Below the pieces are notes generated by a model. It was not told where the DNA came from. It worked only from the letters and a program-made list of their open reading frames with translations, and made no database searches. Made by a program: the position numbers and the translations under genes. This document shows positions 41,395 to 60,122 of a stretch of 64,000 bases of DNA, one piece after another (position 1 is the first letter of the stretch; each line of letters starts with the position of its first letter). This stretch comes from an uncultured Pelagibacteraceae bacterium (lineage in GTDB: Bacteria; Pseudomonadota; Alphaproteobacteria; Pelagibacterales; Pelagibacteraceae), in NCBI GenBank assembly GCA_902623075.1, contig CACNSD010000001.1:124001-188000 (forward strand), given 5' to 3'.

Positions 41395-41397
41395 ATT

Positions 41398-43420: not shown

Positions 43421-43445
43421 AAATATATTTTACACAAAATTACTT

Positions 43446-43480: not shown

Positions 43481-43501
43481 TTAAAATTTTAACTTTTATC
43501 C

Positions 43502-44550: not shown

Positions 44551-46890
44551 ATGTTGGGTACAAGTAAAGATATCAAATATCCTGGTTTAAATATTTTACC
44601 ACCTGGAGTTGAAAGACATGTTGTTAATGGCGGTGGACTAACTGGTTTTCAAGTGTTTCCAGATGATGAAATAGAAATTGTTAATAATGAAGGTAATCAA
44701 ATTTGTGAAATTATTTGTTTTGACAAAAGTGGAAAGTCAGAACTTGGAATTTTTGATCTCAAAGAAAATAGTAAAAAAAATTACATTAAAAATATTTTGC
44801 TTAGAAAAGACGAGTCTATACTAGCAACAAACTATCAATTAAAAAAAAGAAACTTAAATATTTCAGACTCACATGCTGCTATTATTTTTGATACAGATAC
44901 AAATGCAGGTGAAGTTATTAAATTAAAATCAAAAGATAAATGCTATGCAATATTTGCCTCGCCTGGGGATGATATGGATGTTACTAATCAAAATCCTCCT
45001 AGTGAATTAACAATATTTATAAAAAGATCAAAAATTACAAATGATAAAGAGTTAAATGTAATTCCAGATCCTGTTTTTGAGCCTGCGCATGAAGAAAATA
45101 TTTTAAGGCAATCTTGTACATCTTATCAAGTTAAAGAAGGTGACTACATTCAAATCATAAGTCCTACAGGAAGACAATGCTCTGACTTTGTGGCATTTGA
45201 CACTAGAAAATTAGAAAAAGGAATTGAAAAAGGATTAGACTGGCAAACTACCAGAACTTTTATGGGGAATACTTTTCCTGGACCTGGTCTCTTTTCAAAA
45301 TTTTATGATACTGATCATGAGCCACTAGTAGAGGTTGTAAGGGATACAGTTGGAAAACATGATACTTTCAATCTTGCATGTACTTCAAAATATTATGAGG
45401 ATGCAGGTTATTTTGGACATCCAAATTGCTCAGACAACCTAACTGAAAGTATGTCTAAATTTGGAGTGCAAAAACAGAAAGGATGGCATGCAATCAATTT
45501 ATTTTTTAATACTTCTGCAGCAGGTTTAAATTCTGTCATTTCAGATGAGTCTTATTCACGACCAGGGGATTATGTAATGTTTAGAGCTTTAAAAGATTTA
45601 ACTATTGGAACAACTGCATGTCCAAGTGATATTGATCCTTGTAATTCGTGGAATCCAACTGATATTTTTGTTAGAACGTATGACAAAAAAAAAGAATTTA
45701 GCAAATCATTTGCATTTAGAATGAAAGCAGACTCAGAAAAAAAACTTACAAGAAACTCTGGTTTTTATGAAAGAACTTCTAAATTAACTAGAAATTTTGT
45801 TGATGCTAGAGGTTTTTGGCTTCCAAATGATTATACAAAACACGGTTTAGTAAATGAATATAATGCATGCAGAAATGATGCTGTGCTAATTGATCTATCA
45901 TCATTAAGAAAATTTGAAATTATTGGCCCAGATGCAGAGGAACTTTTAAATTATACTCTTACAAGAAATATTAAAAAACTTTCTGTTGGACAAGTTGTTT
46001 ATTCTGCAATGTGTTACGAAAATGGAATGATGTTTGATGACGGAACCCTTTTAAGATTAAGTGAAACAGGTTTTAGATGGATATGTGGAGACGAGTACGG
46101 TGGAGAATGGTTAAAAGAAGTTGCAAAGAAAAAAAAATTTAATGCTTTTATTAAAAACTCAACAGATCAAATAAGTAATGTATCTTTGCAAGGTCCTAAG
46201 AGTAGAGAAATATTGAAAAAAATTATCTTTACACCACCAACACAGCCATCAATAGACGAACTGGGTTGGTTTAGATTCACAATTTGCAGGATTGAAGAGC
46301 TTCAAGGCATACCGTTAATCGTTTCAAGAACAGGTTACACTGGCGAGTTAGGTTATGAGATTTGGTGTCATCCAAAACATGCGCCTGAGGTTTGGGATAA
46401 ATTGATGGAAGCAGGCAAAGATGATGGTTTGATTCCAGCTGGGTTTGCTGCTTTAGATAAACTGAGAATAGAGGCTGGTTTAATATTATTTGGTGCTGAA
46501 TTTGATGGAGAACAAGATCCTTTCGAAGCTGGTATAGGTTTCGCTGTCCCTTTAAAAACAAAAGAAGAAGATTTTATTGGTAAAGAAGAATTAATAAAAA
46601 GAAAAGCCAATCCCCAAAAGAAATTAGTAGGATTAGAACTTGCTGGTAAAGAAATAGCTGGACATGGGGACTGTGTTCATATCGGTAGATCACAAGTAGG
46701 TATTGTTACGAGTGGGTGCTTATCTTCTGTGTTAAATAAAAATATTGCACTTTGTAGAATAGATACTCAATACTCTGAAACTGGAACAGAAGTCGAAGTA
46801 GGTAAAATTGATGGACATCAAAAAAGGATTGGTGCAAAAGTAGTCGGATTTCCATTTTACGATCCATCAAAGTCTAGAGTTAGATCTTAA
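44551..46890 (+). CDS. tdm: Trimethylamine N-oxide demethylase
   Basis: 779 aa. Residues 1-380 form the DUF1989 half, and the rest is a GcvT folate-binding half (NARDDAVLIDLSS-like NACRNDAVLIDLSS, TGYTGELGYEIWCHP, GFAALDKLRIEAGLILFGAE). The zinc ligands fall at C277, H290, C293 and C357, with spacings 13, 3 and 64 identical to those I recall for the Methylocella Tdm zinc site. It cleaves TMAO to dimethylamine and formaldehyde, and the C-terminal part conjugates the formaldehyde to THF. It diverges from tmoX and is followed after 5 bp by a winged-helix-like gene. Confidence 0.9.
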   Translation: MLGTSKDIKYPGLNILPPGVERHVVNGGGLTGFQVFPDDEIEIVNNEGNQICEIICFDKSGKSELGIFDLKENSKKNYIKNILLRKDESILATNYQLKKRNLNISDSHAAIIFDTDTNAGEVIKLKSKDKCYAIFASPGDDMDVTNQNPPSELTIFIKRSKITNDKELNVIPDPVFEPAHEENILRQSCTSYQVKEGDYIQIISPTGRQCSDFVAFDTRKLEKGIEKGLDWQTTRTFMGNTFPGPGLFSKFYDTDHEPLVEVVRDTVGKHDTFNLACTSKYYEDAGYFGHPNCSDNLTESMSKFGVQKQKGWHAINLFFNTSAAGLNSVISDESYSRPGDYVMFRALKDLTIGTTACPSDIDPCNSWNPTDIFVRTYDKKKEFSKSFAFRMKADSEKKLTRNSGFYERTSKLTRNFVDARGFWLPNDYTKHGLVNEYNACRNDAVLIDLSSLRKFEIIGPDAEELLNYTLTRNIKKLSVGQVVYSAMCYENGMMFDDGTLLRLSETGFRWICGDEYGGEWLKEVAKKKKFNAFIKNSTDQISNVSLQGPKSREILKKIIFTPPTQPSIDELGWFRFTICRIEELQGIPLIVSRTGYTGELGYEIWCHPKHAPEVWDKLMEAGKDDGLIPAGFAALDKLRIEAGLILFGAEFDGEQDPFEAGIGFAVPLKTKEEDFIGKEELIKRKANPQKKLVGLELAGKEIAGHGDCVHIGRSQVGIVTSGCLSSVLNKNIALCRIDTQYSETGTEVEVGKIDGHQKRIGAKVVGFPFYDPSKSRVRS

Positions 46891-46895
46891 AAAAT

Positions 46896-47246
46896 ATGCC
46901 TAAAGATAAAAAAACACTTTTAGATTTTTGGGAAGATCAGATGAGACAATCACATACTTCAAGTAATTATTTTTTTAGAAAATCTCCTTCTCATTATCAT
47001 ATGATGTTATTAGTCATGTCTGCATTTAAAGAAGGGAAAAAATTGTCTGTAGAGGAGTTAAAGACAAAACTTTTTAAAACTTCTAGACCAAAATCAGCAT
47101 TAATTATAACAGAAGCATGTGAAAAAGGATTCTTTAGGTTAGAAAAAACATCTGCTGACCAAAGAATTAAAAATATAATGCCAAGTGAATCTTTTGTTGA
47201 TGAATTTAACAAATACTTGGTTACTCTTAAAAACATAAGTTATTAG
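46896..47246 (+). CDS. Small winged-helix-like (MarR-like) putative regulator
   Basis: 116 aa, no signal peptide, no membrane span. Helix-turn-helix-like segments (KKLSVEELKTKLFKTSRPKSALIITEACEKGFFRLEK) are followed by KTSADQRIKNIMPSESFVDEFNKYL, which resembles the beta-wing and recognition region of MarR-type proteins ('...D.R....ls..g...'). The family call is by pattern and is modest. It is 5 bp after tdm, and its 3' end is followed within 30 bp by a perfect 28-bp palindrome that could be its operator upstream of the next operon. Confidence 0.6.
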   Translation: MPKDKKTLLDFWEDQMRQSHTSSNYFFRKSPSHYHMMLLVMSAFKEGKKLSVEELKTKLFKTSRPKSALIITEACEKGFFRLEKTSADQRIKNIMPSESFVDEFNKYLVTLKNISY

Positions 47247-47348: not shown

Positions 47349-48677
47349 ATGTCAACTTTGCCTACAAAAGCAAAAGTAGTAATTATCGGCGGTGGAATTC
47401 ACGGATTAAGTACCGCATGGAAACTTTCTGAAACATATAAAAATCCTGGTGATGTAATCGTTTTAGAAAAAAAAGATACAGCAGCAGGAGCAAGTGGGAT
47501 TGCTTGTGGTGTTGTTAGAAATAATTATTTCCAACCAGCAATGAGAGAACTTATGGCTCACTCAGTGTCAGTCTGGGAAAGTGATCCTAAAGCATTCAAA
47601 TATAATCCTGTTGGATACATGCAAATATCTCCTGAAGTAATGCATGAAGATGTAGCTAGTATTTATAACCAGCAAAAAGCAATTGGATATGAGTCAGTTT
47701 TTATAGAAGGTGAAAAAGATTGTTCAAATTACATGAAAGGTATTTTTGATGATTGGCAAGCTAAAGGTATAACTTCTGTTCTGCATGAAAAAAAAGGAGG
47801 TTACGCTTTTAATAAAGACTCAATTAAAGCTCTTGAGAGTAAAGCGAATTCAAATGGTGTAAATGTTCACAAAGGTGTAACTGTTACAGGCTTTAAAAGA
47901 GGTAGTAATAGTAATGCAGTAACTGGAGTAGTAACAAATTTAGGGACTATAGAATGTGATCAGGTAGTTGTTGGTGCTGGTCCATGGGTAAGAGATTTTT
48001 GGAATATGCTTGAGTTACCTAAATCTACAGAGATCAAAGGCAAAGATGGAAAAATGCACGAAGTTGATATGTGGAAATATTGGTTTTTACAAGAGGGTGT
48101 TCTAGGTGTTGATGCAGATTATTTAAAAACTAATGATGGCAAACAGCCTCCAGTAATACACGTAGATACAGATGCACCTTTATACTCAGATAAAGATAAA
48201 AAATTAATAACTGATGAGCTTTGGGGTATTTATTATAAACCTGATATAGAAGGCTTGGGAGTTCAAGGAGGAACTTCTCCATATATAGTTCAAAAACATT
48301 TTGATAAAGTAAACGTTGATCCATATGGAATTGAGTCTCCTGAATATCAAACAACTGATAAATTCGCTGACATGTGGACATCAGCTCTCGCGCATATACA
48401 AAAAAGATTTGAAGGTAAATCTGATTTGTACAGAAAAGGTCCATCTGGTGGTCTAGGTTGTTTAACCCCTGACTCTTTCCCAATATTTGATAGATTTTTT
48501 GAAAATGTTTATATGATTGCTGACGCTAACCATGGTTATAAAATGATTGGTGTTGGGCATTTAGTTGCGCAAGAAATTTTAGGTCAAGAAAGTGACTTAT
48601 TAAAACCGTTTAGATATGATCGTTATGCTAAGGGTGAACTTCACCCTACTTCGAACAGTCCGTTTCCTTGGAGTTAA
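47349..48677 (+). CDS. DAO-family FAD-dependent oxidoreductase
   Basis: 442 aa from the ATG at 47349 (MSTLPTKAK); an in-frame TTG two codons earlier is less likely. The N-terminal motif is VVIIGGGIHGLSTAWKLSETY. GPSGGLGCLTPDSFPIFDRFFENVYMIADANHGYKMIGVGHLVA is the C-terminal FAD block (shown here in part: SGGLGCLTPDSFPIFDRFF). There is no GcvT domain, so any one-carbon product would not be folate-bound by this chain. It heads the first GS/glutamate-synthase module. It could be a single-chain N-methylglutamate, dimethylamine or other amine oxidase. The link is inferred from position. Confidence 0.75.
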   Translation: MSTLPTKAKVVIIGGGIHGLSTAWKLSETYKNPGDVIVLEKKDTAAGASGIACGVVRNNYFQPAMRELMAHSVSVWESDPKAFKYNPVGYMQISPEVMHEDVASIYNQQKAIGYESVFIEGEKDCSNYMKGIFDDWQAKGITSVLHEKKGGYAFNKDSIKALESKANSNGVNVHKGVTVTGFKRGSNSNAVTGVVTNLGTIECDQVVVGAGPWVRDFWNMLELPKSTEIKGKDGKMHEVDMWKYWFLQEGVLGVDADYLKTNDGKQPPVIHVDTDAPLYSDKDKKLITDELWGIYYKPDIEGLGVQGGTSPYIVQKHFDKVNVDPYGIESPEYQTTDKFADMWTSALAHIQKRFEGKSDLYRKGPSGGLGCLTPDSFPIFDRFFENVYMIADANHGYKMIGVGHLVAQEILGQESDLLKPFRYDRYAKGELHPTSNSPFPWS

Positions 48678-48744
48678 TTTATCTAAGTAGACAAACGTTT
48701 TTTTTTCAGTTACCTTTTTGATCTAGAAATTCAAAAGGGGGAAA

Positions 48745-50214
48745 ATGACTGATTTAGAAAAACATGTAAACCAACCAGGTAGAGCAAAGCTAGTTAAAAA
48801 AGTTAGAGAAAAAATTAAAGAATTAGGGATAACTTACATTTATTTTCAATTTATATCTGTTACAGGCAGAGTTGTTGGTAAAGGAATACCAGCAGATCAT
48901 TGGGAAAGAACTGCAGAAAAAGGTTTTCAATTAGTTTATGGATCGACTGCAAACTTATTTTTAGATCGTCATAATAATTACATTGGCTACGGACCAGAAG
49001 CAATGGAGTTGGTTGGAATTCCAGATCCGGAAACTTTCGTTCAGTTACCATGGGATAAAAGAGTTGGAAGAGTATTTTGCACATGTTTTAGAAACAGAGA
49101 AGAAAGAGAAAATCCAGGAGGTCACCTTACATCTGATTGCAGAGGAAATTTAAGAATTTTCATGGATGAATTTCAAAAGAAACATGGACTAGAATTAAGA
49201 GTTGGAACAGAACCTGAAATGATGTGGTTAACAAAAAATCAAGACGGCACTCCAACTGGAAAAGGTTTTTCAAAACCATTCTGTTATCATATTGATCAGT
49301 TTGAGTCGTTAAGACCTGTTTTTATGAAAGTGATTGAATACTCTAACGCTATGGGCTTAGATATGATTCAAGGTGATCATGAGGATGCCCCTGGACAACT
49401 AGAGCTTAACTGGACTTTCGACAATGTCTTAAGAAATGCAGATAGATTATCAACTTACAGACAAATTTGTGCACAAGTTGCTAGAGAACATGGTTTAATA
49501 GCTTGTTTTATGACAAAACCATTCATGGGTGTATCTGCAAGTGGTTGTCATACAAACATGTCATTATGGAAAGGTGGAAAGATTTCTGTAAACAAGTTAG
49601 GTCATAAATCTTTGCCAGGTGTTGATGAGGTATTTAGCTATGTTTCAGGTGGAAAAAATACTTTCATGCCTGATACTAAAGATCCACAATTGCCTGGAAA
49701 AATTGGGTTACAATCAATAGCAGGCATTATGGAACACTTACCAGCATTAACTGCTCTTGGATCTTCAACCGTAAATTCATACAGAAGATTATGGGACCAA
49801 GGATTTTGGGCTCCTGTTTATGCTGACTGGGGATATCAAAACAGAACTTGTGGATTAAGAGTGTCTGCTCCAGGGAGATTTGAATATAGATCGGTGGACT
49901 CTATGCATAATCCTTACTTGTTAGGTGCCGCTTTGTTAAAAGCATGTGATGAAGGTATTAGTAAAAAAATGAAACCAGCAGCTCCAGAGTCTAGAAATAT
50001 TTACGAAGCTCAAAAAGCTGGAAAAGATGTTAAAAAACTTCCATTAAGTCTGGGTGAAGCTTTAGATCGACTTGCTGAAGATGAAGTTATCAAATCTGCA
50101 ATGCCAGATGAAATGTATAAAGTTTTCCATTGGTATAAAAATGATGAGTGGGAAAGGTTCCTGGGTGCAACCACACAATGGGATCTGGATACTTATCTTG
50201 ATTGTCTACCGTAG
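48745..50214 (+). CDS. Glutamine-synthetase-family ligase (module 1)
   Basis: 489 aa. The GS catalytic domain is clear: LELRVGTEPEMMW (metal glutamate), HEDAPGQLELNW, GCHTNMSLWKGG (catalytic histidine), VNSYRRLWDQGFWAP and RFEYRSVDSMHNPYL. It differs from GmaS (58797-60122) by an N-terminal extension and by its own insertions, with 20-30 percent apparent similarity. A strong AAGGGGG ribosome-binding site precedes the ATG. It probably ligates an amine or ammonia to glutamate with ATP. Which amine is unknown. It is followed by an amidotransferase/GXGXG/FMN set, as in N-methylglutamate synthase operons. Confidence 0.8.
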   Translation: MTDLEKHVNQPGRAKLVKKVREKIKELGITYIYFQFISVTGRVVGKGIPADHWERTAEKGFQLVYGSTANLFLDRHNNYIGYGPEAMELVGIPDPETFVQLPWDKRVGRVFCTCFRNREERENPGGHLTSDCRGNLRIFMDEFQKKHGLELRVGTEPEMMWLTKNQDGTPTGKGFSKPFCYHIDQFESLRPVFMKVIEYSNAMGLDMIQGDHEDAPGQLELNWTFDNVLRNADRLSTYRQICAQVAREHGLIACFMTKPFMGVSASGCHTNMSLWKGGKISVNKLGHKSLPGVDEVFSYVSGGKNTFMPDTKDPQLPGKIGLQSIAGIMEHLPALTALGSSTVNSYRRLWDQGFWAPVYADWGYQNRTCGLRVSAPGRFEYRSVDSMHNPYLLGAALLKACDEGISKKMKPAAPESRNIYEAQKAGKDVKKLPLSLGEALDRLAEDEVIKSAMPDEMYKVFHWYKNDEWERFLGATTQWDLDTYLDCLP

Positions 50215-50244
50215 GTCATTAAATAGAAAGGGTATAAATAAATT

Positions 50245-51189
50245 ATGTGTGGAATAGCAGGTTTAATTCATAGAGGTAAATCTTCTAATGTTGGTAGTGA
50301 ATTACAAGGAATGCTCCAAGCATTAAAACATAGAGGAGAAGACTCAACAGGATATGCCTTGTACGGAGATACTGACGGCAAACATTTTATAATGCGCTTC
50401 AAAGTTGGTGAAAACGTTGGTGAGGGTTCATCTTCGGTTATGGAGGATGTTTCTGTCTATGATGAAAGAAAAAAGATAGTAGATCAAACTTTAGCAGAAT
50501 TAGGGGCTAAGGTGGTTAAAGAGGAAAGAACTTTGCCCTACTCTTTAAGATATGAAATAGATTATGATGTAAAAGACCTTCTTAATTTTTCTCAAACTAT
50601 TGAAAGTATACCAGGTGTTGAAATTCTATCTATGGGTAAATCTTTAGAAGTTATTAAGGATCTTGGAAATGCAAAAGCTGTTTGTGATAGATACTCTTTA
50701 GATAAACTAGTAGGAACCCACGCAATAGGTCATGCTAGAATGGCAACTGAGTCGGGTGTTGATATTAAATCAGCCCACCCTTTCTGGGGTTATCCTTTTA
50801 GTGATGTTTCGGTAGTTCATAATGGACAACTTACAAATTATTGGAATAATAGAAGAGCATTGGAAAATAAAGGAATGAGATTTATGTCTGAGTGTGACTC
50901 GGAACTTATAGCAGTTTACATTGCTCAAAAAATGAGAGAGGGAGCATCTCTTGAAGAGGGAATGAAAGATTCTTTAACTGGTCTTGATGGTGTGTTCACT
51001 TATTTTGTTGCAACTAAAGACTCTTTAGGAATGGCAAAAGATACAATGGCAGCAAAACCTCTAGTTTTGTATGAGTCAGATGATTTAGTGGCAATGGGGT
51101 CAGAAGAAATCGCAATAAGATCTGTGCTTCCACAAGAAATTGATACTTACGATCCATTTGATGGGGAGGTTAAAGTATGGCGAATTTAA
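50245..51189 (+). CDS. Class II glutamine amidotransferase subunit (module 1, MgsA/GlxB-like)
   Basis: 314 aa. The N-terminal nucleophile cysteine is in MCGIAGLIHRG, and GHARMATESG (residue about 168) and VVHNGQLTNYW follow as in GltB-type amidotransferase domains. It would release ammonia or methylamine from a gamma-glutamyl compound and pass it to the FMN subunit. It overlaps the next gene by 13 bp. The paralogue at 55864-56748 shares about the same length and order. Confidence 0.8.
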   Translation: MCGIAGLIHRGKSSNVGSELQGMLQALKHRGEDSTGYALYGDTDGKHFIMRFKVGENVGEGSSSVMEDVSVYDERKKIVDQTLAELGAKVVKEERTLPYSLRYEIDYDVKDLLNFSQTIESIPGVEILSMGKSLEVIKDLGNAKAVCDRYSLDKLVGTHAIGHARMATESGVDIKSAHPFWGYPFSDVSVVHNGQLTNYWNNRRALENKGMRFMSECDSELIAVYIAQKMREGASLEEGMKDSLTGLDGVFTYFVATKDSLGMAKDTMAAKPLVLYESDDLVAMGSEEIAIRSVLPQEIDTYDPFDGEVKVWRI

Positions 51190-52031
51190 AAAACGTTACT
51201 AAAAAAACCAAAGCCCAGGAGATGGGTATGCACACTGAGGTGCTTACTGGCAGAACCCAACAGAAATTTTTTAATCCAGACGAGGCTGAGAACTTTTATT
51301 ATTTTGGAACTTATGATGTTGATTTTAATAAAAGGATCGATTTGGATGTAAAAGATATGACTGCTCCTGAGGCAAATAAAGAAATAGATAATTTAATGAG
51401 CCAAGGGTATGGGACTATTGTAATAAAAAACCCTCAAGGAAAACATAGTCTTGGTGTTGGTATCTTAAATAAATTAAACCTAATTTTTGAGGGAAGCTTG
51501 GGATATTTTGGAATGGGCTCATGCGACGGCCCTATAGTTAGAATTAATGGTAGAGTTGGATGGTCATGCGCGGAAAACTTAATGGCAGGAAAAGTTGTGA
51601 TTGAAAAGAATGCAGGATCATGCTTCGGAGCTGCTATAAGAGGTGGAGACCTAATTTGCAAAGGTAGCGTTGGAGCAAGAACTGGTATCGATATGAAAGG
51701 TGGTACCATTATTATTGGTGGAGATGCTGGTGCCTTTACAGGTTTTATGATGCAAAGAGGAAGAATAATTATTCTTGGAGATGTCGGAATTAACCTAGGT
51801 GACTCAATGTATGATGGGACAATTTTCGTAGGTGGCGAAATAGGATCTTATGGTAGTGATGCAGTAGATTCAGAATTAACACCTAATGACCAAGATTGGT
51901 TAAAAAGAAAATTAAAAGTTGCTGAAATTGGTGAAAATTTTGACGTAAGTAAAATGAAAAAAATTGTAGCTGGTAAAAAACTTTGGAATTATGATAATTT
52001 GGAACCTACAGAGAAGAAGGGAGCAATTTAA
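51177..52031 (+). CDS. GXGXG-motif glutamate-synthase subunit (module 1, MgsB/GlxC-like)
   Basis: 284 aa. The beta-helix GXGXG domain is visible in repeated glycine turns (FEGSLGYFGMGSCDGPIVRI, GRVGWSCAENLMAGKVVIEK, CKGSVGARTGIDMKGGTIII, GDAGAFTGFMMQRGRIII). It is about 57 residues longer than the module 2 counterpart, all at the N-terminus (with TGRTQQKFFNPDEAENFYYFG). It acts structurally in the synthase. The ATG overlaps the amidotransferase gene and its stop overlaps the FMN-subunit start (TAATG). Confidence 0.8.
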   Translation: MANLKNVTKKTKAQEMGMHTEVLTGRTQQKFFNPDEAENFYYFGTYDVDFNKRIDLDVKDMTAPEANKEIDNLMSQGYGTIVIKNPQGKHSLGVGILNKLNLIFEGSLGYFGMGSCDGPIVRINGRVGWSCAENLMAGKVVIEKNAGSCFGAAIRGGDLICKGSVGARTGIDMKGGTIIIGGDAGAFTGFMMQRGRIIILGDVGINLGDSMYDGTIFVGGEIGSYGSDAVDSELTPNDQDWLKRKLKVAEIGENFDVSKMKKIVAGKKLWNYDNLEPTEKKGAI

Positions 52032-53443
52032 TGCCTAAGAAAAAGTCAAAAAAAATTAAAAAAAATGGAAAAGGTGTTGGTGGAAAAGCTGACGTTCATG
52101 TTCATGAAGAAGGGAAAAGAAATAAAAGTTTATTAGGGCATAATGCTATTTTCACTCCCGAAGTAATTGATGACATTCATATTAAATCACAGTTAGGAAG
52201 ATACAGAATGCGTGGTATGGCCCTAATGAAAAAAATTCCTACATTTGATGATTTGGTATTTTTACCTGGAACATTAACTAGATTTGTAATCGAAGGTTAC
52301 AGAGAAAAATGTGAAACTAAAACTGTGATTGGTCCAAGATGTGAAAATCCAATTGAGCTTGATATTCCTGTTTATATAACTGGAATGAGTTTTGGTGCAC
52401 TTTCTTATGAAGCAAAAACTGCATTAGCAAGAGGAGCAACAATGGCTGGTAGTGCTACATGTTCAGGTGAAGGTGGAATGATACCAGACGAAAGAAGATA
52501 TTCTGAGAAGTGGTATTACCAATGTATCCAATCAAGATATGGATTCAATCCTCATCATGCACAACTAGCTGATGGAATTGAAGTATTTATTGGACAAGGA
52601 CAAAAAGTTGGAATGGGCGGTCACTTAATGGGCCAAAAAGTAACTGACCAAGTTGCTGAAATGAGATCTTTACCATCTGGTATTGATCAAAGATCTCCTG
52701 CTAGGCACCCTGACTGGTTAGGTCCAGACGATCTAGCTTTAAAAGTAGAAGAGCTAAGACAATTAACTAAAAATAAAGTACCAATTCAATTAAAGCTCGG
52801 AGCATCAAAAGTTTATGATGATGTGCGTATGGCTGCTAAATGTGATCCTGACTCTATTTATCTTGATGGAATGGAAGGTTCTACTGGTGCAGGTCCCCAC
52901 ATAGCCGCTGCTAACACTGGTATTCCTGGAATAGCGGCAATTAGAGAGGCAAGAAGAGCAATAGACGATGTTGGTAAAACTGGAAAAGTAACATTAATTT
53001 ATGCTGGTGGTGTAAGAGACGGTGCAGACATGGCAAAAGCCTTGGCTCTAGGAGCTGATGCAATTGCGATTGGTACTGGTTCTATGATCGCATTAAATTG
53101 TAATAAAGATATTCCTGAAGCAAACTTTGAAAAAGAAATGGGAGTAAAAGCTGGTGAGTGTTATCACTGCCATACAGGAAGATGTCCAGTCGGTGTTGCA
53201 ACTCAAGATCCAAAATTAAGAGCAAGATTAAATCCAGATGATGCTGCACTGAGAGTTTACAATTATCTTCATTCAATGACTTTAGAAGCTCAACTTTTAG
53301 CAAGAGCTTGTGGTAAAACAAATATTCATTCGCTAGAGCCTGAAGATTTAGCTGCACTAACATCTGAAGCTTCAGCATTAGCTAAAGTTCCACTTGCAGG
53401 AACTAACTATACAGTTGGAGTTGATAACTATCACAAAATATAA
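52031..53443 (+). CDS. FMN-binding glutamate-synthase subunit with Fe-S-type cysteines (module 1)
   Basis: 470 aa, GltS FMN/Fe-S domain. GMSFGALSYEAKTALARGAT, IELKLGASKVY-like IQLKLGASKVY, LDGMEGSTGAGPH and YAGGVRDGADMAKALALGAD trace the FMN barrel. Residues C377, C380 and C385 (ECYHCHTGRCPVGVATQ) sit where glutamate synthases coordinate their 3Fe-4S cluster. All three are absent in the module 2 paralogue. An N-terminal K-rich tail precedes residue 30. It would form the amino donor product from 2-oxoglutarate with electrons supplied by an unidentified partner. Confidence 0.8.
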   Translation: MPKKKSKKIKKNGKGVGGKADVHVHEEGKRNKSLLGHNAIFTPEVIDDIHIKSQLGRYRMRGMALMKKIPTFDDLVFLPGTLTRFVIEGYREKCETKTVIGPRCENPIELDIPVYITGMSFGALSYEAKTALARGATMAGSATCSGEGGMIPDERRYSEKWYYQCIQSRYGFNPHHAQLADGIEVFIGQGQKVGMGGHLMGQKVTDQVAEMRSLPSGIDQRSPARHPDWLGPDDLALKVEELRQLTKNKVPIQLKLGASKVYDDVRMAAKCDPDSIYLDGMEGSTGAGPHIAAANTGIPGIAAIREARRAIDDVGKTGKVTLIYAGGVRDGADMAKALALGADAIAIGTGSMIALNCNKDIPEANFEKEMGVKAGECYHCHTGRCPVGVATQDPKLRARLNPDDAALRVYNYLHSMTLEAQLLARACGKTNIHSLEPEDLAALTSEASALAKVPLAGTNYTVGVDNYHKI

Positions 53444-53454
53444 GGTTAATAACT

Positions 53455-53871
53455 ATGGCTAAAAAAAAGGGTAAGAAGTTAGTTAAAACAAAAGAAAAAG
53501 AGATTAAAGGTCAATTAGGAAAAAAAGCAGAGACAGCTAGAGAAAAAATGATCGGTCAATCAATTGGTTACCGATATGATGTAAACCTTTTACCTGACTA
53601 CAGCAAAATCACACCATTTCTGAAAAAATATATTGAAGCAATGGGTTGGGATGATTTAAATTGGTTAGAGGATGTTCATATGGGATATGAGGAAGATAGA
53701 CCTGCAGTTTTTTGTAGAAATGCAAATGGTTGGGTTACAATTCCAAAATCGATTAAACTGCCGAATAACCAACAAGATAGAGATATGATTGCAAGAGAAC
53801 TTTTAGTCAAGTTTCAAATGTCACCAAAACATCCTCTTGTTGATTTAAAAAAAGCTTATTTAAAATTTTAA
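53455..53871 (+). CDS. Hypothetical protein in module 1, 138 aa
   Basis: No family recognised. A lysine-rich tail at residues 1-35 (KKKGKKLVKTKEKEIKGQLG) resembles the tail of the preceding FMN subunit. A compact domain follows, with YRYDVNLLPDYSKITPFLKKYIEAMGWDDLNWLEDVHMG and AVFCRNANGWVTIP. It starts 11 bp after the FMN-subunit gene and is absent from module 2. It may be an extra subunit. Confidence 0.65.
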   Translation: MAKKKGKKLVKTKEKEIKGQLGKKAETAREKMIGQSIGYRYDVNLLPDYSKITPFLKKYIEAMGWDDLNWLEDVHMGYEEDRPAVFCRNANGWVTIPKSIKLPNNQQDRDMIARELLVKFQMSPKHPLVDLKKAYLKF

Positions 53872-53896
53872 CTTTACAATCAATAGTTGATAATTT

Positions 53897-53936
53897 TTAA
53901 AAACCTATTGTTCATAAAGGTTTTTAATCCTTTTTT
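53897..53936 (+). terminator. Probable terminator after module 1
   Basis: TTAAAAACCT (53897-53906) pairs with AGGTTTTTAA (53918-53927) around an 11-base loop, and TCCTTTTTTAT follows. The stem is A/T-rich, so it is a moderate terminator that separates the module from amt. Confidence 0.55.
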
Positions 53937-53996
53937 ATATTTGTATCGAATCAATTAATTTTATAGGATTCTAATAAACTAATATGGAGAGAGAAT

Positions 53997-55397
53997 ATGA
54001 CTGATCAGTTAGGTGCTCTAACAACCATATTTACAGAGTTTTACTACTGGGTAACAGTAGTGCTGATGTTCTTAATTCACGTCGGTTTCTGTATGTATGA
54101 AGTTGGGGCTTCTCGTTACAAACACCATCAACATACTCTGATGAAAAACACAATGCTGATACCATTGGTAACAGTGACGTGGTTTTTATTTGGTTGGTGG
54201 ATATATTGGGCTTTTCCTACAGGACCGGGTTTAGCACCATCAATAATGAATGAGAGCTCTGCTCTTATTACAGACGAGTCCGCATTTAGTGCAACATGGT
54301 ATACGGCAACGAGTGATTTAATGGCTGTAAATCTAGGGGACCATATTTCTGGTGTCTTCTGGGCTGCATTCTTACTGTTCTCATGGACTGCCGCTTCTAT
54401 CGTGTCAGGTGCAATTATTGAAAGAATAACAACTTTTGCGTTTGGAATTTTAGCAATTGCAATTGGATCTGTATTCTGGGTAATAGATGCAGCCTGGGGA
54501 TGGCACTTTGATGGCTGGATGTTGAAACTCTTAGGATATCATGATGCCTATGCATCAGGTGTAATTCATGCAATTGCAGGTGGTTTTGCATTGGGTGTTC
54601 TAATGGTTTTAGGACCACGAATTGGAAAATTTTCATCAAGTGGTGAGCCAAGAAACATTGGGCCAAGAAATCCTTGGCTAGTTACAATTGGTTTATTTCT
54701 AATTTATACTGGCTTCTGGGGTTTCTACGCAGCATGTAATATACCAATCTTTGATCTTGGACCTGAGTACGGTATGGAAGGAATAAGTTATTGGACAGCA
54801 ACAAATATATATGTAACTCCTACGACACTTAGTGGTATTACTTTTAACTTCTTGATGTCATTATCAGGAGGTTTATTAGCCGGTTATTGGATTGCTAAAG
54901 GTGATCCGTTCTGGACTTACTCAAGTGGACTAGCGGGTATTATATGTGCTTCAGCTGGAAATGATTTATATCATCCAATTCAAGCAATGATAATTGGTAT
55001 GATCGGTGTTGTAATTTCATATAAACTTCATTATTGGGTTGAACGTAAGTTCAAAATTGATGATGCAGTTGGTGCGGTTGCAGTACACGGTTATGCTGGC
55101 TTTATTGGTCTAGTGATTTGTGGATTTGTCTTAAATGGTTACCCAGCTTCTGGTTACAGTGTTGGAGCTATGTGGGACGGAACTACTTACGCTTCAATAA
55201 ACCCATTAGGTCAATTCATCGGTGCATTAATAATGTTCGTTGTTCTTGGACTAATACCGGGCTATGTCATAGCTAGAGTGCTTCATGGTATGGGTAAATT
55301 AAGGATCCCTCGTGAGGTTGAGATAGCTGGACTTGACTATGAAATAATGGAGACTGCTAAAGAAGATGAAAAAGCAGTTGCGTCCGCAACCAGGTAA
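53997..55397 (+). CDS. amt: Ammonium/methylammonium transporter
   Basis: 466 aa with 11 or so membrane helices. The conserved pore histidines fall in VIHAIAGGFALG and VAVHGYAGFIGL, and WGWHFDGW is the binding-site region, so the channel looks intact. Many Amt proteins also take methylammonium. Set between two amine-to-glutamate modules, uptake of ammonium or methylammonium is the likely role. A GGAGAGAG Shine-Dalgarno precedes the ATG. No P-II gene (glnK) is adjacent, unlike the common glnK-amtB arrangement. Confidence 0.9.
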   Translation: MTDQLGALTTIFTEFYYWVTVVLMFLIHVGFCMYEVGASRYKHHQHTLMKNTMLIPLVTVTWFLFGWWIYWAFPTGPGLAPSIMNESSALITDESAFSATWYTATSDLMAVNLGDHISGVFWAAFLLFSWTAASIVSGAIIERITTFAFGILAIAIGSVFWVIDAAWGWHFDGWMLKLLGYHDAYASGVIHAIAGGFALGVLMVLGPRIGKFSSSGEPRNIGPRNPWLVTIGLFLIYTGFWGFYAACNIPIFDLGPEYGMEGISYWTATNIYVTPTTLSGITFNFLMSLSGGLLAGYWIAKGDPFWTYSSGLAGIICASAGNDLYHPIQAMIIGMIGVVISYKLHYWVERKFKIDDAVGAVAVHGYAGFIGLVICGFVLNGYPASGYSVGAMWDGTTYASINPLGQFIGALIMFVVLGLIPGYVIARVLHGMGKLRIPREVEIAGLDYEIMETAKEDEKAVASATR

Positions 55398-55410
55398 AGG
55401 AGAATAATAT

Positions 55411-55641
55411 ATGGCTACAGTTACAAACTGGATAGATCACCTTAACAAACCAGCCGAAGAAGTTGCTGGTGCTGTTTATCCTGGTGCTGGATCTAGTGAA
55501 GGAATACTGGTAATCATTGCTATTATTTTGTGGGTTGGTTGGCATGTTTTAACAGCTAAATCTGAGAGTGAAGAACTTGATAGACTAGCTAGAAAAAGAC
55601 ATGGTGCTAACGACCATAAAAGCAATATTACCGATTGGTAA
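55411..55641 (+). CDS. Small single-span membrane protein after amt, 76 aa
   Basis: One hydrophobic helix at residues about 31-47 (GILVIIAIILWVGWHVL) follows an N-terminal soluble part (TNWIDHLNKPAEEVAGAVYP), and a charged tail (ESEELDRLARKRHGANDHKS) follows the helix. No family recognised. It is 13 bp after amt with an AGGAGAA ribosome-binding site, and the terminator at 55657 ends the unit. It might be an Amt accessory. Confidence 0.65.
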   Translation: MATVTNWIDHLNKPAEEVAGAVYPGAGSSEGILVIIAIILWVGWHVLTAKSESEELDRLARKRHGANDHKSNITDW

Positions 55642-55656
55642 TTAAAAAATAAATTT

Positions 55657-55688
55657 GGGCGCTACTTAATTGTGGCGCCCTTTTTTTT
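55657..55688 (+). terminator. Rho-independent terminator after the amt operon
   Basis: GGGCGC (55657-55662) and GCGCCC (55675-55680) form a strong stem, extended by an A-T and a G-U pair, around a 10-12-base A/T loop. Eight T residues follow directly. This is the clearest textbook terminator in the window. Confidence 0.9.
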
Positions 55689-55697
55689 AGAAAAAAT

Positions 55698-55850
55698 ATG
55701 GATGATAAAGATAACGAAGAACTAAGGCCTTCTAAAATGAGAGGGGTAGCTTTTCCAAAAGCTAAGTACGGAGTGATAGCGGCTATTATCATCATTGTAG
55801 TTGTAAATCTTATCTATTATAAAGAATTCTTTTTATCGTTAATTAATTAA
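55698..55850 (+). CDS. 50-residue single-span membrane protein
   Basis: Translated by hand: a charged N-terminus (MDDKDNEELRPSKMRGVAFP), then one hydrophobic helix (GVIAAIIIIVVVNLIY), ending YKEFFLSLIN. The ATG is 10 bp after the terminator T run, so it probably has its own promoter or relies on read-through. No family is recognised. The stop is 14 bp before the amidotransferase gene of module 2. Confidence 0.5.
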   Translation: MDDKDNEELRPSKMRGVAFPKAKYGVIAAIIIIVVVNLIYYKEFFLSLIN

Positions 55851-55863
55851 AACTCAAAAATCT

Positions 55864-56748
55864 ATGTGTGGAATTGTTGGAATATATTTGAAAACAAAAA
55901 AATTTGAAAAAAATTTAGGTAAAATGTTATCAGGTATGCTTAATAACATGGAGTCTAGAGGACCAGATAGTGCAGGATTTGCTGTATATAAAAATTCAGA
56001 TAAAAAAGAATATAAATACTCTTTGTGTATTAATAATTTAGATTTTAATAAATTTAAAAAAGATATTTCAAAAAAAATTAGAAATTTAAAATTAAATCAA
56101 TACTCAGATCATGTAATTGTAAGAACACCAGAAATACCAAAAAAATTTATTAAGTTTATCAATAAAGAATTACCTGAAGTTTCAATTGTTGGATATGGGC
56201 ATTCTATTGAAATTTTTAAACAAGTTGGAAATCCAAAAGACGTTGTTAAAAAATTTAACTTAGAAAGTTTTAGCGGTACACATGGTATTGGTCATACAAG
56301 AATGGCAACTGAGAGTGCAATTACTACTGAAGGCTCTCATCCTTATTCAACAGGAGAAGATGAATGTTTAGTTCATAATGGTTCTTTATCTAATCATAAT
56401 AATTTAAGAAGAGAGCTTAAGAAAAAAGGTAATACTTTTACCTCTGAAAATGATACTGAAGTTGCTGCAGGTTATGTTTCTAATAGTCTCTCAAATAATA
56501 ATTCATTAAAAAAAACTCTTGTTTCAGGCCTAAAAGACCTGGATGGTTTTTATACATTTATAGCGGGAACGAGAAAGGGATTTGCAGTAGTAAGAGATGA
56601 AATTGCATGCAAGCCTGCTGTTATCGCAGAAACAAAAAATTATATTGCTATTGCGTCTGAATTTCAAGCTATGGCACATTTACCAGATGTTAATGATGCA
56701 AAAATTTTTGAACCTGAGCCAGGTGTTGTCTATTCTTGGGGTAATTAA
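55864..56748 (+). CDS. mgsA: N-methylglutamate synthase subunit A (class II amidotransferase)
   Basis: 294 aa. The nucleophile is the N-terminal Cys of MCGIVGIYLKTK. GHTRMATESA and LVHNGSLSNHNNLRREL are the GltB-type glutamine-site signatures. In N-methylglutamate synthase it would hydrolyse gamma-glutamylmethylamide (from GmaS) to methylamine plus glutamate. Its product feeds the FMN subunit. It overlaps mgsB by one base. The naming follows the gmaS-mgsABC gene set of methylotrophs (GlxB of rhizobia is homologous). Its lysine content is much higher than that of the module 1 paralogue. Confidence 0.8.
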   Translation: MCGIVGIYLKTKKFEKNLGKMLSGMLNNMESRGPDSAGFAVYKNSDKKEYKYSLCINNLDFNKFKKDISKKIRNLKLNQYSDHVIVRTPEIPKKFIKFINKELPEVSIVGYGHSIEIFKQVGNPKDVVKKFNLESFSGTHGIGHTRMATESAITTEGSHPYSTGEDECLVHNGSLSNHNNLRRELKKKGNTFTSENDTEVAAGYVSNSLSNNNSLKKTLVSGLKDLDGFYTFIAGTRKGFAVVRDEIACKPAVIAETKNYIAIASEFQAMAHLPDVNDAKIFEPEPGVVYSWGN

Positions 56749-57431
56749 TGATATTAGATTTAAAAAAATTGAAGTTAAGAAAAATAAACGAACAGCTTCA
56801 AGGTATAGATAGAAAAATAAATGATAGGAATTTTACAATAATAAACCCCGAAGGTAATCATGCAGTATGTGCGGGACTTACCGAGGAATTAAATGTAAAT
56901 ATTAAAGGTCATGTTGGATATTATTGTGCAGGAATGAATCAAAAAGCTAACATTACAATTGAAGGTAACGTGGGGACTGGTGTGGCTGAAAATATGATGT
57001 CAGGTAAAGTTCATGTAAAAGGTAATGCATCACAATCAGCAGGTGCAACAGCTCATGGAGGACTTTTAGTTATTGATGGCGATGCTAGTTCAAGATGTGG
57101 AATTTCTATGAAAGGTGCTGATATAGTTGTGAAAGGCTCAGTAGGTCACATGTCAGGTTTCATGTCTCAAGCAGGGAACTTAGTGGTGTGTGGTGATGCT
57201 GGTGAGGCATTAGGTGATAGTTTATATGAAACAAACATATATATAAAAGGTAAAGTTAAATCACTTGGTGCAGATTGTGTAGAAAAAAAAATGGATAAAA
57301 AACATTTAAAAAAACTTAACATACTTTTAAAGGAAGCAAATATTAAAAATCATAAAGCTGAAAGTTTTAAAAGATATGGCTCAGCAAAAAAATTATACAA
57401 CTTTAAAATAGATAATATTTCTAATTATTAA
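56748..57431 (+). CDS. mgsB: N-methylglutamate synthase subunit B (GXGXG domain)
   Basis: 227 aa. Glycine-turn repeats of the GltS C-terminal beta helix are readable (NVNIKGHVGYYCAGMNQKAN, IEGNVGTGVAENMMSGKVHV, IDGDASSRCGISMKGADIVV, KGSVGHMSGFMSQAGNLVV). It has a structural or tunnelling role with the amidotransferase and FMN subunits. The start overlaps mgsA by one base, and mgsC follows after 2 bp. The module 1 counterpart carries an extra N-terminal region. Confidence 0.8.
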   Translation: MILDLKKLKLRKINEQLQGIDRKINDRNFTIINPEGNHAVCAGLTEELNVNIKGHVGYYCAGMNQKANITIEGNVGTGVAENMMSGKVHVKGNASQSAGATAHGGLLVIDGDASSRCGISMKGADIVVKGSVGHMSGFMSQAGNLVVCGDAGEALGDSLYETNIYIKGKVKSLGADCVEKKMDKKHLKKLNILLKEANIKNHKAESFKRYGSAKKLYNFKIDNISNY

Positions 57432-57433
57432 TC

Positions 57434-58762
57434 ATGAAGAAAACTAACAGAACTCATCCTCGTCAATCATGGACTTTTGACGAATACACAAATTCAGAAA
57501 TTAGAAGAGCTGCAGCAACAGGCATTTATGATATTAGAGGTGGAGGATCTAAAAGAAAGCTCCCCCACTTTGATGATTTATTATTTTTAGGAGCATCAAT
57601 GTCTAGATATCCATTAGAAGGCTATAGAGAAAAATGTACTACAAATGTAACCCTTGGAACTAAATTTGCAAAGAAACCACTTGAATTAGATATACCAATT
57701 ACAATTGCAGGGATGAGCTTCGGTGCATTATCAGGACCAGCAAAAGAAGCTTTGGGAAGAGGCGCAAGTGCTGCTGGTACATCTACTACTACAGGTGACG
57801 GAGGAATGACACCTGAAGAAAGAGGACAATCTAAATATTTAGTATATCAATTATTACCTTCTAGATATGGAATGAACCCAGACGATTTAAGAAAAGCAGA
57901 TGCAATTGAAGTTGTTATAGGTCAAGGTGCAAAGCCGGGTGGTGGTGGAATGTTATTAGGTCAAAAAATAAATGACAGAGTTGCAAAAATGAGAACTTTA
58001 CCAAAGGGAGTTGATCAAAGATCTGCATGCAGACATCCTGACTGGACTGGACCAGATGATCTAAAAATAAAAATTTTAGAATTACGTGAAATTACAAAAT
58101 GGGAAGTTCCCATCTTTATAAAAATTGCAGGTGCAAGACCATATTACGATACTGCTCTAGCCGTAAAAGCTGGTGCTGACGTAGTTGTGCTAGATGGAAT
58201 GCAAGGAGGAACAGCTGCTACACAAGAAGTTTTTATAGAAAATGTTGGTCAACCTACTTTAGCTTGTATTAGACCTGCAGTAGATGCCTTACAAGATTTA
58301 AATGCGCACAGAGAAGTACAATTGGTAATATCAGGTGGAATAAGAAATGGTGCAGATGTTGCAAAAGCTTTAGCGCTTGGTGCAGATGCGGTGTCAATAG
58401 GCAGTGCTGCAATGATAGCTATAGGTGATAATGATCCAAAATGGGAAAAGGAATACAATAAGCTAGGTTCTACAGCAGGCGCTTATGACGATTGGCATGA
58501 GGGAAATGATCCAGCTGGAATATCAACTCAAAATCCAAATTTAATGAAAAGATTAGATCCAATAAAAGCTGGTAAAAAATTAACCAATTATCTAAAAGTT
58601 ATGACATTAGAGGCGCAAACACTTGCAAGAGCTTGTGGAAAAAATAGTTTGCACAATTTGGAACCTGAAGATTTATGTGCACTAACTGTTGAAGCGGCTG
58701 CAATGGCTAGAGTTCCATTAGCAGGAAGTGATTGGATACCGGGAATAAAAGAAAAAAAGTGA
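57434..58762 (+). CDS. mgsC: N-methylglutamate synthase subunit C (FMN domain)
   Basis: 442 aa, GltS FMN barrel: IAGMSFGALSGPAKEALGRG, TGDGGMTPEERG, GAKPGGGGMLLGQKIND, VLDGMQGGTAATQEVF and ISGGIRNGADVAKALALGAD. The place where module 1 has C377/C380/C385 reads Y351, W354 and D359 here (AYDDWHEGNDPAGIS), so the 3Fe-4S cluster cannot form. I recall the same loss in other MgsC/GlxD sequences, so it is a family trait. It makes N-methylglutamate from 2-oxoglutarate and methylamine. gmaS follows after 34 bp. Confidence 0.8.
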   Translation: MKKTNRTHPRQSWTFDEYTNSEIRRAAATGIYDIRGGGSKRKLPHFDDLLFLGASMSRYPLEGYREKCTTNVTLGTKFAKKPLELDIPITIAGMSFGALSGPAKEALGRGASAAGTSTTTGDGGMTPEERGQSKYLVYQLLPSRYGMNPDDLRKADAIEVVIGQGAKPGGGGMLLGQKINDRVAKMRTLPKGVDQRSACRHPDWTGPDDLKIKILELREITKWEVPIFIKIAGARPYYDTALAVKAGADVVVLDGMQGGTAATQEVFIENVGQPTLACIRPAVDALQDLNAHREVQLVISGGIRNGADVAKALALGADAVSIGSAAMIAIGDNDPKWEKEYNKLGSTAGAYDDWHEGNDPAGISTQNPNLMKRLDPIKAGKKLTNYLKVMTLEAQTLARACGKNSLHNLEPEDLCALTVEAAAMARVPLAGSDWIPGIKEKK

Positions 58763-58796
58763 TTGATACAATTCTTTAATATTCATAAGATCATTT

Positions 58797-60122
58797 ATGC
58801 CAAAAAATTTATCAAAGATTGCAAAAGCTAAAAAAATTAAATATTTTTTAATAAGTTTCGTAGATCTGTTTGGAGTTTTAAGATCTAAATTAGTTCCAGC
58901 TCAAGCAATTAGTGAAATGCAGAAAGAGGGAGCGGGTTTTGCGGGTTTTGCGACATGGCTAGATATGACTCCAGCAGATAGTGATATGTTTGGCGTTCCA
59001 GATCCTGATAGTTTAATTCAACTTCCATGGAATAAAGAAATTGGATGGTTAGCGTCTGATTTATATATGGATGGCAAACCTGTTAAAGCGTCTCCAAGAA
59101 TAATGCTTAAAGAGCAAATAAAAAAATTATCACAAAAAAAACTACAAATGAAATCAGGTGTAGAGTGTGAATATTTTTTAATTTCTGAAGATGGACATTC
59201 TTTAGCGGACAAAAGAGATATTCAATCTAAACCTTGTTATGATCAATCTGCTCTTATGAGAAGATATGATTTAATAAAAGAAATTTGTGATTGTATGTTG
59301 GAAATTGGCTGGAAACCCTACCAAAATGACCACGAAGATGCTAATGGTCAATTCGAGATGAACTGGGATTATTCAGACTCACTTATTACAGCGGATAGGC
59401 ATGTTTTCTTTAAATTTATGGTAAAAAGTTTAGCAGAGAAACATGGTTTAAGAGCAACTTTTATGCCAAAACCATTTAGTAATTTGACTGGTAATGGTTG
59501 TCATGCTCATGTTTCAGTTTGGAATGGAAAAATAAATAAATTCTTAGATAATAAAGATCAATTAGGATTAAGTAAGTTAGCTTATAATTTCTTAGGTGGA
59601 ATAATGAATAATACGCAAGCGCTGTCTGCTTTTTTTAATCCAACGATTAATAGTTATAGAAGAATAAACGCTCCACCAACAAAATCAGGTGCAACATGGT
59701 CTCCAAGTAGTATTTCGTACACAGGTAATAACAGAACTCATATGATTAGAATTCCTGACAAAGGAAGATTTGAGTTAAGATTAATGGATGGTTCAGCAAA
59801 TCCATATTTGCTTCAAGCAGGTATTATTGCTGCAGGACTAGAAGGAATTAATAAAAAATTAAATCCAGGAAAACCTCTTCATTGTAATATGTACGAAGAT
59901 TATAAAAAATATCCTAAACTTAAGAAATTACCTAACGATATTAACCAAGCCATTAGCATGCTCCAAAATAGTAAAGCGCTTTTAAAAGCATTTGGTACTG
60001 ATGTTATTAAAAGCTATATAAAATTAAAAAATTTGGAGATAAAAAATTTTAAAGTGAGAAATGTTTTTAATAAAAGAAAACCAGTATCACAATGGGAAAA
60101 AGATAATACTTTAGACTGTTAA
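58797..60122 (+). CDS. gmaS: Gamma-glutamylmethylamide synthetase
   Basis: 441 aa, the usual GmaS length. YFLISFVDLFGVLRSKLVPA, GAGFAGFATWLDMTPADSDM and YQNDHEDANGQFEMNWDY match GmaS/GlnT-like sequences I recall. GCHAHVSVWNGK holds the catalytic histidine and RFELRLMDGSANPYL the C-terminal glutamate block. It ligates methylamine to the gamma-carboxyl of glutamate with ATP. It belongs with mgsABC just upstream. A GTG-start gene follows after one base. Use of ammonia or other amines cannot be ruled out. Confidence 0.85.
   Translation: MPKNLSKIAKAKKIKYFLISFVDLFGVLRSKLVPAQAISEMQKEGAGFAGFATWLDMTPADSDMFGVPDPDSLIQLPWNKEIGWLASDLYMDGKPVKASPRIMLKEQIKKLSQKKLQMKSGVECEYFLISEDGHSLADKRDIQSKPCYDQSALMRRYDLIKEICDCMLEIGWKPYQNDHEDANGQFEMNWDYSDSLITADRHVFFKFMVKSLAEKHGLRATFMPKPFSNLTGNGCHAHVSVWNGKINKFLDNKDQLGLSKLAYNFLGGIMNNTQALSAFFNPTINSYRRINAPPTKSGATWSPSSISYTGNNRTHMIRIPDKGRFELRLMDGSANPYLLQAGIIAAGLEGINKKLNPGKPLHCNMYEDYKKYPKLKKLPNDINQAISMLQNSKALLKAFGTDVIKSYIKLKNLEIKNFKVRNVFNKRKPVSQWEKDNTLDC

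Follow-up and report, generated by a model that had tools for sequence, protein, structure and literature searches.

The described systems closest to the genes treated here belong to the N-methylglutamate pathway for methylamine (MMA), in which a gamma-glutamylamide ligase, GmaS, is combined with a glutamate synthase split over three chains, MgsABC. Dimethylamine (DMA), the product of the trimethylamine N-oxide (TMAO) demethylase Tdm, is the substrate of the DMA monooxygenase DmmDABC, from which the pathway is entered at methylamine. SAR11 bacteria are reported to have tmm, tdm, and gmaS and to lack dmmDABC; the authors stated that they knew of no evidence of DMA oxidation in these bacteria and proposed a bottleneck, with DMA building up and reaching the air (Lidbury et al., 2017; PMC5520151). 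For strain HTCC1062 noticeable growth on TMAO as sole nitrogen source, far weaker than on ammonium, has been described, and an unknown isoenzyme for DMA has been suggested (PMC8918994, 2022). No paper filling this gap was found in the literature searched. The present analysis concerns a set of genes, called module 1, in a 64,000-nucleotide stretch of DNA (the window) from an uncultured Pelagibacteraceae bacterium of the SAR11 group with a genome of 1.2 Mb (GCA_902623075.1, contig CACNSD010000001.1, positions 124,001-188,000). Module 1, which adjoins tdm, offers the best candidate for the missing DMA step.

Two diverged modules, each consisting of a glutamine synthetase (GS)-like ligase and a split glutamate synthase, flank the ammonium transporter gene amt in the window (Table 1). 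An earlier note on this DNA had described the arrangement, and all open reading frames (ORFs) lie where it placed them. It was also right that the ligase of module 1 is the longer one (489 against 441 amino acids, aa) and the first gene there but the last in module 2, and that the GXGXG chain of module 1 is longer as well (284 against 227 aa). Matches to Pfam and NCBIfam profiles agree with the domain calls for both modules, and both are additional, since gltB-type and glnA-type genes are found elsewhere in the genome. Module 2 had been taken for gmaS-mgsABC, and this holds: its ligase reaches 622.1 bits on TIGR03105, where 469.6 is the cut-off, and matches the solved structure of GmaS, 7cql, at 560 bits, it keeps the catalytic residues Asp177, Glu186, and Arg312 of RhGmaS, and the flavin mononucleotide (FMN) chain falls within the MgsC clade.

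Module 1 is a unit of six genes starting at 47349, in the order FAD oxidoreductase-GS-GlxB-GlxC-GlxD-p138. The earlier note had given its extent as 48745-53871; the genes it listed stand, but the boundary does not, as the flavin adenine dinucleotide (FAD) oxidoreductase upstream also belongs to the unit. This gene is present in 27 of the 38 module 1 stretches fetched, directly upstream of the GS gene in 25 of them. The core of five genes, from GS to p138, keeps its order and orientation in 34 of the 38, and the remaining four stretches end at contig ends. Conservation across 38 alphaproteobacterial genomes shows that the arrangement of the unit is not due to chance. These genomes were found among 49 selected ones (35 with tdm, 11 with p138 only, and three other SAR11 genomes), where the matches to GlxD1, the FMN chain of module 1, fall in tiers of 76-100% identity (the 38 genomes), 50-54% (MgsC), 40-44%, 38-41%, and 32-36% (GltB). 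The GlxD1 tier was counted from 600 bits, the next match being 508 bits, a cut-off chosen after seeing the data. Module 1 is thus a real, conserved unit. No published function or activity for it was found in the literature searched, in line with the earlier note, which had called its function undescribed.

The small protein p138 occurs in 37 of the 385 genomes sampled from the class. Searches of Pfam, NCBIfam, and the PDB sequences gave no match to it, and its structural model (pLDDT 73) gave no fold match with E <= 0.001; its role is probably that of a subunit for structure or assembly. A search of plasmid records for named module 1 copies gave no match to p138, and all 456 records with a match to the FMN chain are below 60% identity to GlxD1. 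Records L144 and L145, found with the FMN chain, and L143, found with GS, were considered as module 1 copies and rejected, as all three belong to the MgsC group. In the genome G229 (L159), which has no Tdm, the slot of GS1, the module 1 ligase, before GlxBCD1-p138 is taken by a GmaS-like ligase that shares 60% identity with the GmaS of the window.

If module 1 uses DMA, genomes with tdm should hold either module 1 or Dmm. The class sample of 385 genomes contains 35 with Tdm, which was counted from 219 bits, the next match falling at 94 bits. Among these, 27 have GlxD1, six have a strong match to PF11927, the HODM-type DmmDABC subunit, none have both, and two have neither. A match was called strong from 150 bits among tdm genomes, and weak ones of 51-59 bits in three genomes of one genus (G030, G337, and G259) were counted as absent; this limit and the Tdm threshold were chosen after seeing the data. 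A phylum sample of 369 genomes added 19 new genomes to the tdm set (25 with Tdm), and all 19 have strong PF11927 matches and no GlxD1, the best matches lying at 450-472 bits in the MgsC tier; this was checked after the idea had formed. In total 54 tdm genomes divide into 27 with module 1, 25 of Dmm type, none with both, and two with neither, the GlxD1 search covering the 49 and the 19 selected genomes and the PF11927 search covering, within SAR11, the five genomes that the class sample contains. PF11927 had no match in the genome of the window. Counted by family, 13 have module 1 and 10 are of Dmm type, none are mixed, and one has neither system. Fisher's test gives 4e-13 for genomes and 6e-6 for families when phylogeny is ignored. 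On the Tdm tree module 1 needs seven changes, at least four of them on well-supported branches.

In 18 of the 19 new genomes, G817 being the exception, one contig carries the PF11927 gene and, no more than 17 kb away, MgsC or Tdm; the distance is as short in four of the six Dmm-type genomes of the class sample (G252, G283, G310, and G088, not G159 and G022). The marker p138 follows tdm as well, with 26 of 35 tdm genomes against 11 of the 350 others in the class sample. In a family sample of SAR11, Tdm was found in 56 of 187 genomes; all 56 have p138, and five more have p138 alone.

The genes at the end of the route are also unevenly distributed. As Dmm makes methylamine, genomes with Dmm need MgsABC, and MgsC is found in all Dmm genomes except G022 (24 of 25), compared with 13 of the 27 tdm genomes with module 1 (Fisher 1.4e-4, phylogeny ignored). 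In 13 of the 14 module 1 genomes lacking MgsC, G269 being left out, a SoxB relative of the N-methylglutamate dehydrogenase (Mgd) type was sought; all 13 have one at 460 bits or more, and in 10 it is at least 55% identical. Since MgsC is often absent and the Mgd-type SoxB is kept, this distribution fits a route that delivers N-methylglutamate directly.

GS1 scores 297 bits on TIGR03105, below the cut-off of 469.6. All eight RhGmaS residues compared (Lys30', Tyr147, Gln175, Asp177, Glu179, Glu186, Asn188, and Arg312), whose roles in the amine site and in catalysis have been described (PMC7948447), are kept in 35 of 35 GS1 rows; the GlnA of the genome differs at four of the eight. Right beside the amine site there is a fixed difference in the aligned sequences, as positions 174, 176, 182, 185, and 187 read I, G, P, L, L throughout the 35 GS1 rows, whereas at least 17 of the 18 GmaS rows have Y, N, N, F, M there. 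The GS1 rows group together in a GS tree made with a quick method, with a support of 79, which is lower than in the FMN tree. RhGmaS has a reported Km of 16 mM for DMA compared with 27 uM for methylamine (PMC7948447). As GmaS itself thus takes DMA, if poorly, a paralogue adapted to DMA is plausible. The GmaS-type GlnT proteins found on plasmids are about 32% identical to GS1. Two plasmids, of Paracoccus sp. TOH (L141) and Ruegeria (L142), carry ligases more like GS1 (52-53% identical), in operons that combine two GS genes with type 1 amidotransferases and with either aldehyde dehydrogenase or cytochrome P450 genes.

In the tree of FMN chains GlxD1 forms one clade of 42 rows (support 99/98) outside the MgsC group, which includes MgsC of module 2 as well as plasmid sequences from P. 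aminophilus and R. etli. The earlier note had proposed such a tree and held that a place of the module 1 genes in the ordinary GmaS/MgsABC clade would contradict its reading; in the tree obtained, the FMN chain lies outside MgsC. It had further noted that C377, C380, and C385 of the module 1 chain align with Y, W, and D in module 2, which is correct, and had read this as different redox wiring. The CxxCxxxxC motif is indeed found in 42 of 42 GlxD1 rows covering the region (L164 ends before it and was left out of the count), but it is also present in six of the 18 rows of the MgsC group (L126, L134, L145, L187, L188, and L190), and the 12 rows without it, module 2 among them, make up one supported subclade. 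The cysteines therefore look ancestral and by themselves would not mark a different electron donor, which weakens the wiring argument; as a mark of module 1 they were rejected. In one genus the MgsC beside module 1 is cysteine-free in one genome (L122, G337) and cysteine-bearing in another (L134, G030). A further clade of FMN chains, about 42% identical to GlxD1, has a CxxxxC motif (L130, L174, L175, L177, and L181), and in G079 a member of it (L130, 3017 region) lies about 6 kb from module 1.

Module 1 shares the amidotransferase, GXGXG, and FMN domains with GltBD, the partner of GlnA. It differs from this system in having the domains on three chains, a GmaS-type ligase pocket, and no GltD in the unit, and the FMN domains of GltB and GlxD1 are 32-36% identical. 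Three cysteines are present in GlxD1, of which C380 and C385 align with cysteines of GltB, while the spacing of the first one differs. With GmaS-MgsABC it has in common the ligase type, the amine-site residues, and the three-chain synthase. It differs in the separate clade of its FMN chain, in its dedicated flavoprotein and p138, in following tdm, and in not overlapping with Dmm.

The AlphaFold2 model of the FAD oxidoreductase (pLDDT 87.8) has its best Foldseek match in 1vrq_B, the beta subunit of sarcosine oxidase (E 3.2e-27, TM-scores 0.73/0.79), and also matches N-methyltryptophan oxidase and dimethylglycine dehydrogenase (DMGDH). The predicted fold is accordingly that of the sarcosine oxidase-like N-methyl amino acid oxidases. 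Identity in the 50 fold matches listed is 14-20%. Unlike sarcosine oxidase and DMGDH, the module 1 protein has no fused folate domain and belongs to an operon with a glutamate synthase-like set. An HGxK motif near the C-terminus (H395, K398) is invariant; in monomeric sarcosine oxidase it binds the carboxylate.

We consider it probable that module 1 is a set for the utilisation of DMA which takes the place of DmmDABC. This reading is based on the absence of any overlap between module 1 and Dmm in the 54 tdm genomes and on p138 tracking tdm, on the GmaS residues kept by GS1 and the match of the flavoprotein model to sarcosine oxidase and DMGDH, and on the ability of HTCC1062, which has no dmmDABC, to grow with TMAO as its only nitrogen source. 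In the proposed route, Tdm would convert TMAO to DMA, and GS1, as a gamma-glutamyl-dimethylamide synthetase, would join DMA to glutamate at the expense of ATP. GlxB1 would free the DMA inside the complex, and GlxC1 and GlxD1 would combine it with 2-oxoglutarate at the FMN to give N,N-dimethylglutamate; GlxD1 might also act as an N-methylglutamate synthase. The FAD oxidoreductase, as a demethylating oxidase or dehydrogenase of N,N-dimethylglutamate, would then remove one methyl group as formaldehyde, leaving N-methylglutamate, from which Mgd would take the other methyl group and give glutamate back. While Dmm would lead into the pathway at methylamine, module 1 would do so at N-methylglutamate, and it contains no monooxygenase and no gene related to DmmDABC. 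Titles and opening lines of abstracts in the literature searched named no bacterial amine pathway with N,N-dimethylglutamate or gamma-glutamyl-dimethylamide. Mgd has been reported to take part in homarine catabolism as well, according to a 2026 paper.

The genes around module 1 point in the same direction. Tdm is described as having a GcvT domain (PMC5520151). The set of tdm, a tmm-like gene, a TMAO-type transporter, and an mgd-like set is a pointer to DMA that the earlier note had passed over; the ethanolamine-type amines suggested there find no support here, while its wider proposal that module 1 handles another amine is likely to be correct. That it handles another electron donor rested on the cysteines and is weak. 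A DUF1989 domain is also a feature of Tdm, and the flavin monooxygenase at 35461..36792 is a putative Tmm. SoxB of the window shares 59% identity with the sox beta gene that pAMI6 of P. aminophilus carries close to mgsABC-glnT. A one-carbon gene island is completed by genes for a formate-tetrahydrofolate ligase, a class I amidotransferase, and an iron-containing alcohol dehydrogenase (window 31761-35383). Two small ORFs with hydrophobic stretches, 55411-55641 (76 aa) and 55698-55850 (50 aa), lie on the plus strand between amt and mgsA. No RNA elements reached gathering scores in window positions 40000-64000.

Table 1. Positions in the window of the genes of module 1, module 2, and their surroundings.
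Feature	Position	Strand	Remarks
FAD oxidoreductase (DAO family)	47349..48677	+	PF01266; ATG start; mechanical ORF from TTG 47343
GS1, GS-like ligase of module 1	48745..50214	+	489 aa; PF00120
GlxB1, class II glutamine amidotransferase-like chain	50245..51189	+	PF13522, PF13537; order conserved
GlxC1, GXGXG chain	51177..52031	+	PF01493; 284 aa vs 227 aa for module 2 counterpart
GlxD1, FMN chain of module 1	52031..53443	+	PF01645; C377/C380/C385
p138, small conserved 138-aa protein, module 1 marker	53455..53871	+	
Amt ammonium transporter, between the two modules	53997..55397	+	
MgsA (module 2)	55864..56748	+	PF13522, PF13537
MgsB (module 2)	56748..57431	+	PF01493; 227 aa
MgsC (module 2), cysteines lost	57434..58762	+	PF01645; placed inside MgsC clade
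GmaS (module 2 GS)	58797..60122	+	441 aa; last gene of module 2; TIGR03105
Tdm-like protein, proposed DMA source	44551..46890	+	DUF1989 + GcvT; PF09347, PF01571, PF08669
p116, 116-aa protein between tdm and FAD oxidoreductase, without a match in Pfam	46896..47246	+	
OpuA-type ABC transporter (permease, ATPase, binding protein), TmoVWX TMAO transporter candidate	39241..44446	-	PF00528, PF00005, PF04069
Tmm-like flavin monooxygenase	35461..36792	+	PF00743
SoxA/SoxB-like genes, proposed Mgd	27110..31632	-	SoxB 59% identical to pAMI6 sox beta

The same gene order can be followed in HTCC1062 through published locus numbers. This strain is reported to have tmoXWV (PMC8918994), and SAR11_1302 is annotated as opuAC and SAR11_1305 as glnT (PMC5069961), SAR11_1303 as gcvT-like and SAR11_1304 as monomeric sarcosine oxidase (PMC3160333), SAR11_1309 as hypothetical and SAR11_1310 as amt (PMC2704228), and SAR11_1313-1315 as glxBCD and SAR11_1316 as glnT (PMC3160333). 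Since these numbers fit the order seen in the window, we infer that SAR11_1304-1309 are module 1. In stationary phase under sulfur limitation, 15 genes were reported to change fourfold or more, SAR11_1302 and SAR11_1305 among them (mRNA 0.22 and 0.19; PMC5069961).

A set of SAR11 loci was assembled from the best 80 matches to GlxD1 of the window (96-100% identical), taken from a longer list, and its fractions do not apply to SAR11 as a whole for this reason. Tdm, p116, the flavoprotein, and GS1 are present in all 58 loci with 8 kb upstream, while the 62 loci with 8 kb downstream have amt in 62, gmaS in 61, and mgsC in eight within the stretch covered; in 53 of the 62, gmaS follows amt without mgsC. 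The one-contig SAR11 genome G207 (L121) has gmaS and no MgsC genome-wide at E <= 1e-30. MgsABC thus seems to vary among SAR11 bacteria, unlike module 1, which is kept. The two-module state of the window is a minority in this set, and many SAR11 bacteria may have no such synthase other than that of module 1, common to two ligases.

Several observations weigh against the proposed role in DMA utilisation. Two tdm genomes have neither system, the complete G335 and the draft G259, although the genus-mates of the latter, G030 and G337, have module 1. PF11927 is not specific for Dmm, and G022 was counted as Dmm-type at 172.6 bits with the gene away from tdm and without MgsC. Module 1 and Dmm are clustered on the Tdm tree, and a test of independent pairs points in the predicted direction (none in the same direction, a mean of 2.8 in opposite directions, and 1.2 ties) but is too small (p 0.25). 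There are 11 p138 genomes without tdm, and as tdm adjoins module 1 in SAR11, the two could have been lost together there through linkage. The 38 fetched stretches include 11 that lack the FAD oxidoreductase, some of them truncated at a contig end, and the GS1 slot is filled by a GmaS-like ligase in G229. In G335 (L251), the sole complete tdm genome without module 1 or a PF11927 match, tdm follows an OpuA-type transporter.

Module 1 could instead be a second MMA pathway, where GS1 makes gamma-glutamylmethylamide, the Glx chains make N-methylglutamate, and the FAD oxidoreductase acts on this product as an oxidase of a single chain. This would agree with the GmaS pocket kept by GS1, the lack of MgsC in 14 of the 27 tdm genomes with module 1, the pairing of a GmaS-like ligase with GlxBCD1-p138 in G229, and the 53 of 62 SAR11 loci with gmaS and no nearby mgsC; the module 1 synthase may well also serve MMA. 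However, gmaS would then be redundant beside module 1 in 61 of 62 SAR11 loci, the growth of SAR11 on TMAO nitrogen would be left unexplained, and the missing overlap with Dmm among tdm genomes and the Mgd-type gene kept in 13 of 13 genomes checked also speak against this role, which is unlikely. A role for another secondary or primary amine than DMA would accommodate the 11 p138 genomes without tdm and the GS1-like ligases (52-53% identical) in the unrelated two-GS operons of the Paracoccus and Ruegeria plasmids. As the link to tdm and the missing Dmm overlap point to DMA in particular, such a role is distinctly unlikely.

The flavoprotein alone might demethylate free DMA to methylamine, with the other module 1 genes capturing methylamine or ammonium. 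It does belong to the unit, and a predicted general amine oxidase is reported to be expressed by HTCC1062 in nitrogen limitation (PMC5520151). A methylamine product would require MgsC, yet genomes with module 1 do not require it. The nearest solved structures, moreover, act on N-methyl amino acids, and the HGxK motif, which binds the carboxylate in monomeric sarcosine oxidase, is invariant, leaving this possibility very unlikely. The amt gene next to module 1 and the putative cluster-type cysteines that its FMN chain keeps, like GltB, would suit an ammonium-assimilating variant of the glutamine synthetase/glutamate synthase (GS/GOGAT) system. The genome, however, has ordinary glnA and gltB genes, four of the eight compared residues differ in its GlnA and none in GS1, and the link to tdm would be unexplained, so that this explanation is the most improbable of all.

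Utilisation of DMA by module 1 would amount to a new, monooxygenase-free pathway via N,N-dimethylglutamate, filling the published gap in SAR11 TMAO metabolism. In many SAR11 bacteria module 1 would also be the sole N-methylglutamate synthase, serving both GmaS (methylamine) and GS1 (DMA), and electrons from the flavoprotein may even reach GlxD1 via a putative cluster bound by the cysteines. The chances for this wider picture are about even, and the electron transfer in it is speculation. SAR11 bacteria are among the most abundant marine cells and DMA is a common marine amine, for the breakdown of which no genes were known in them before. A candidate of six genes adjoining tdm, placed by locus numbers in the cultured HTCC1062, makes the DMA question directly testable. 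If the proposed role is true, surveys based on dmm only underestimate marine DMA consumption.

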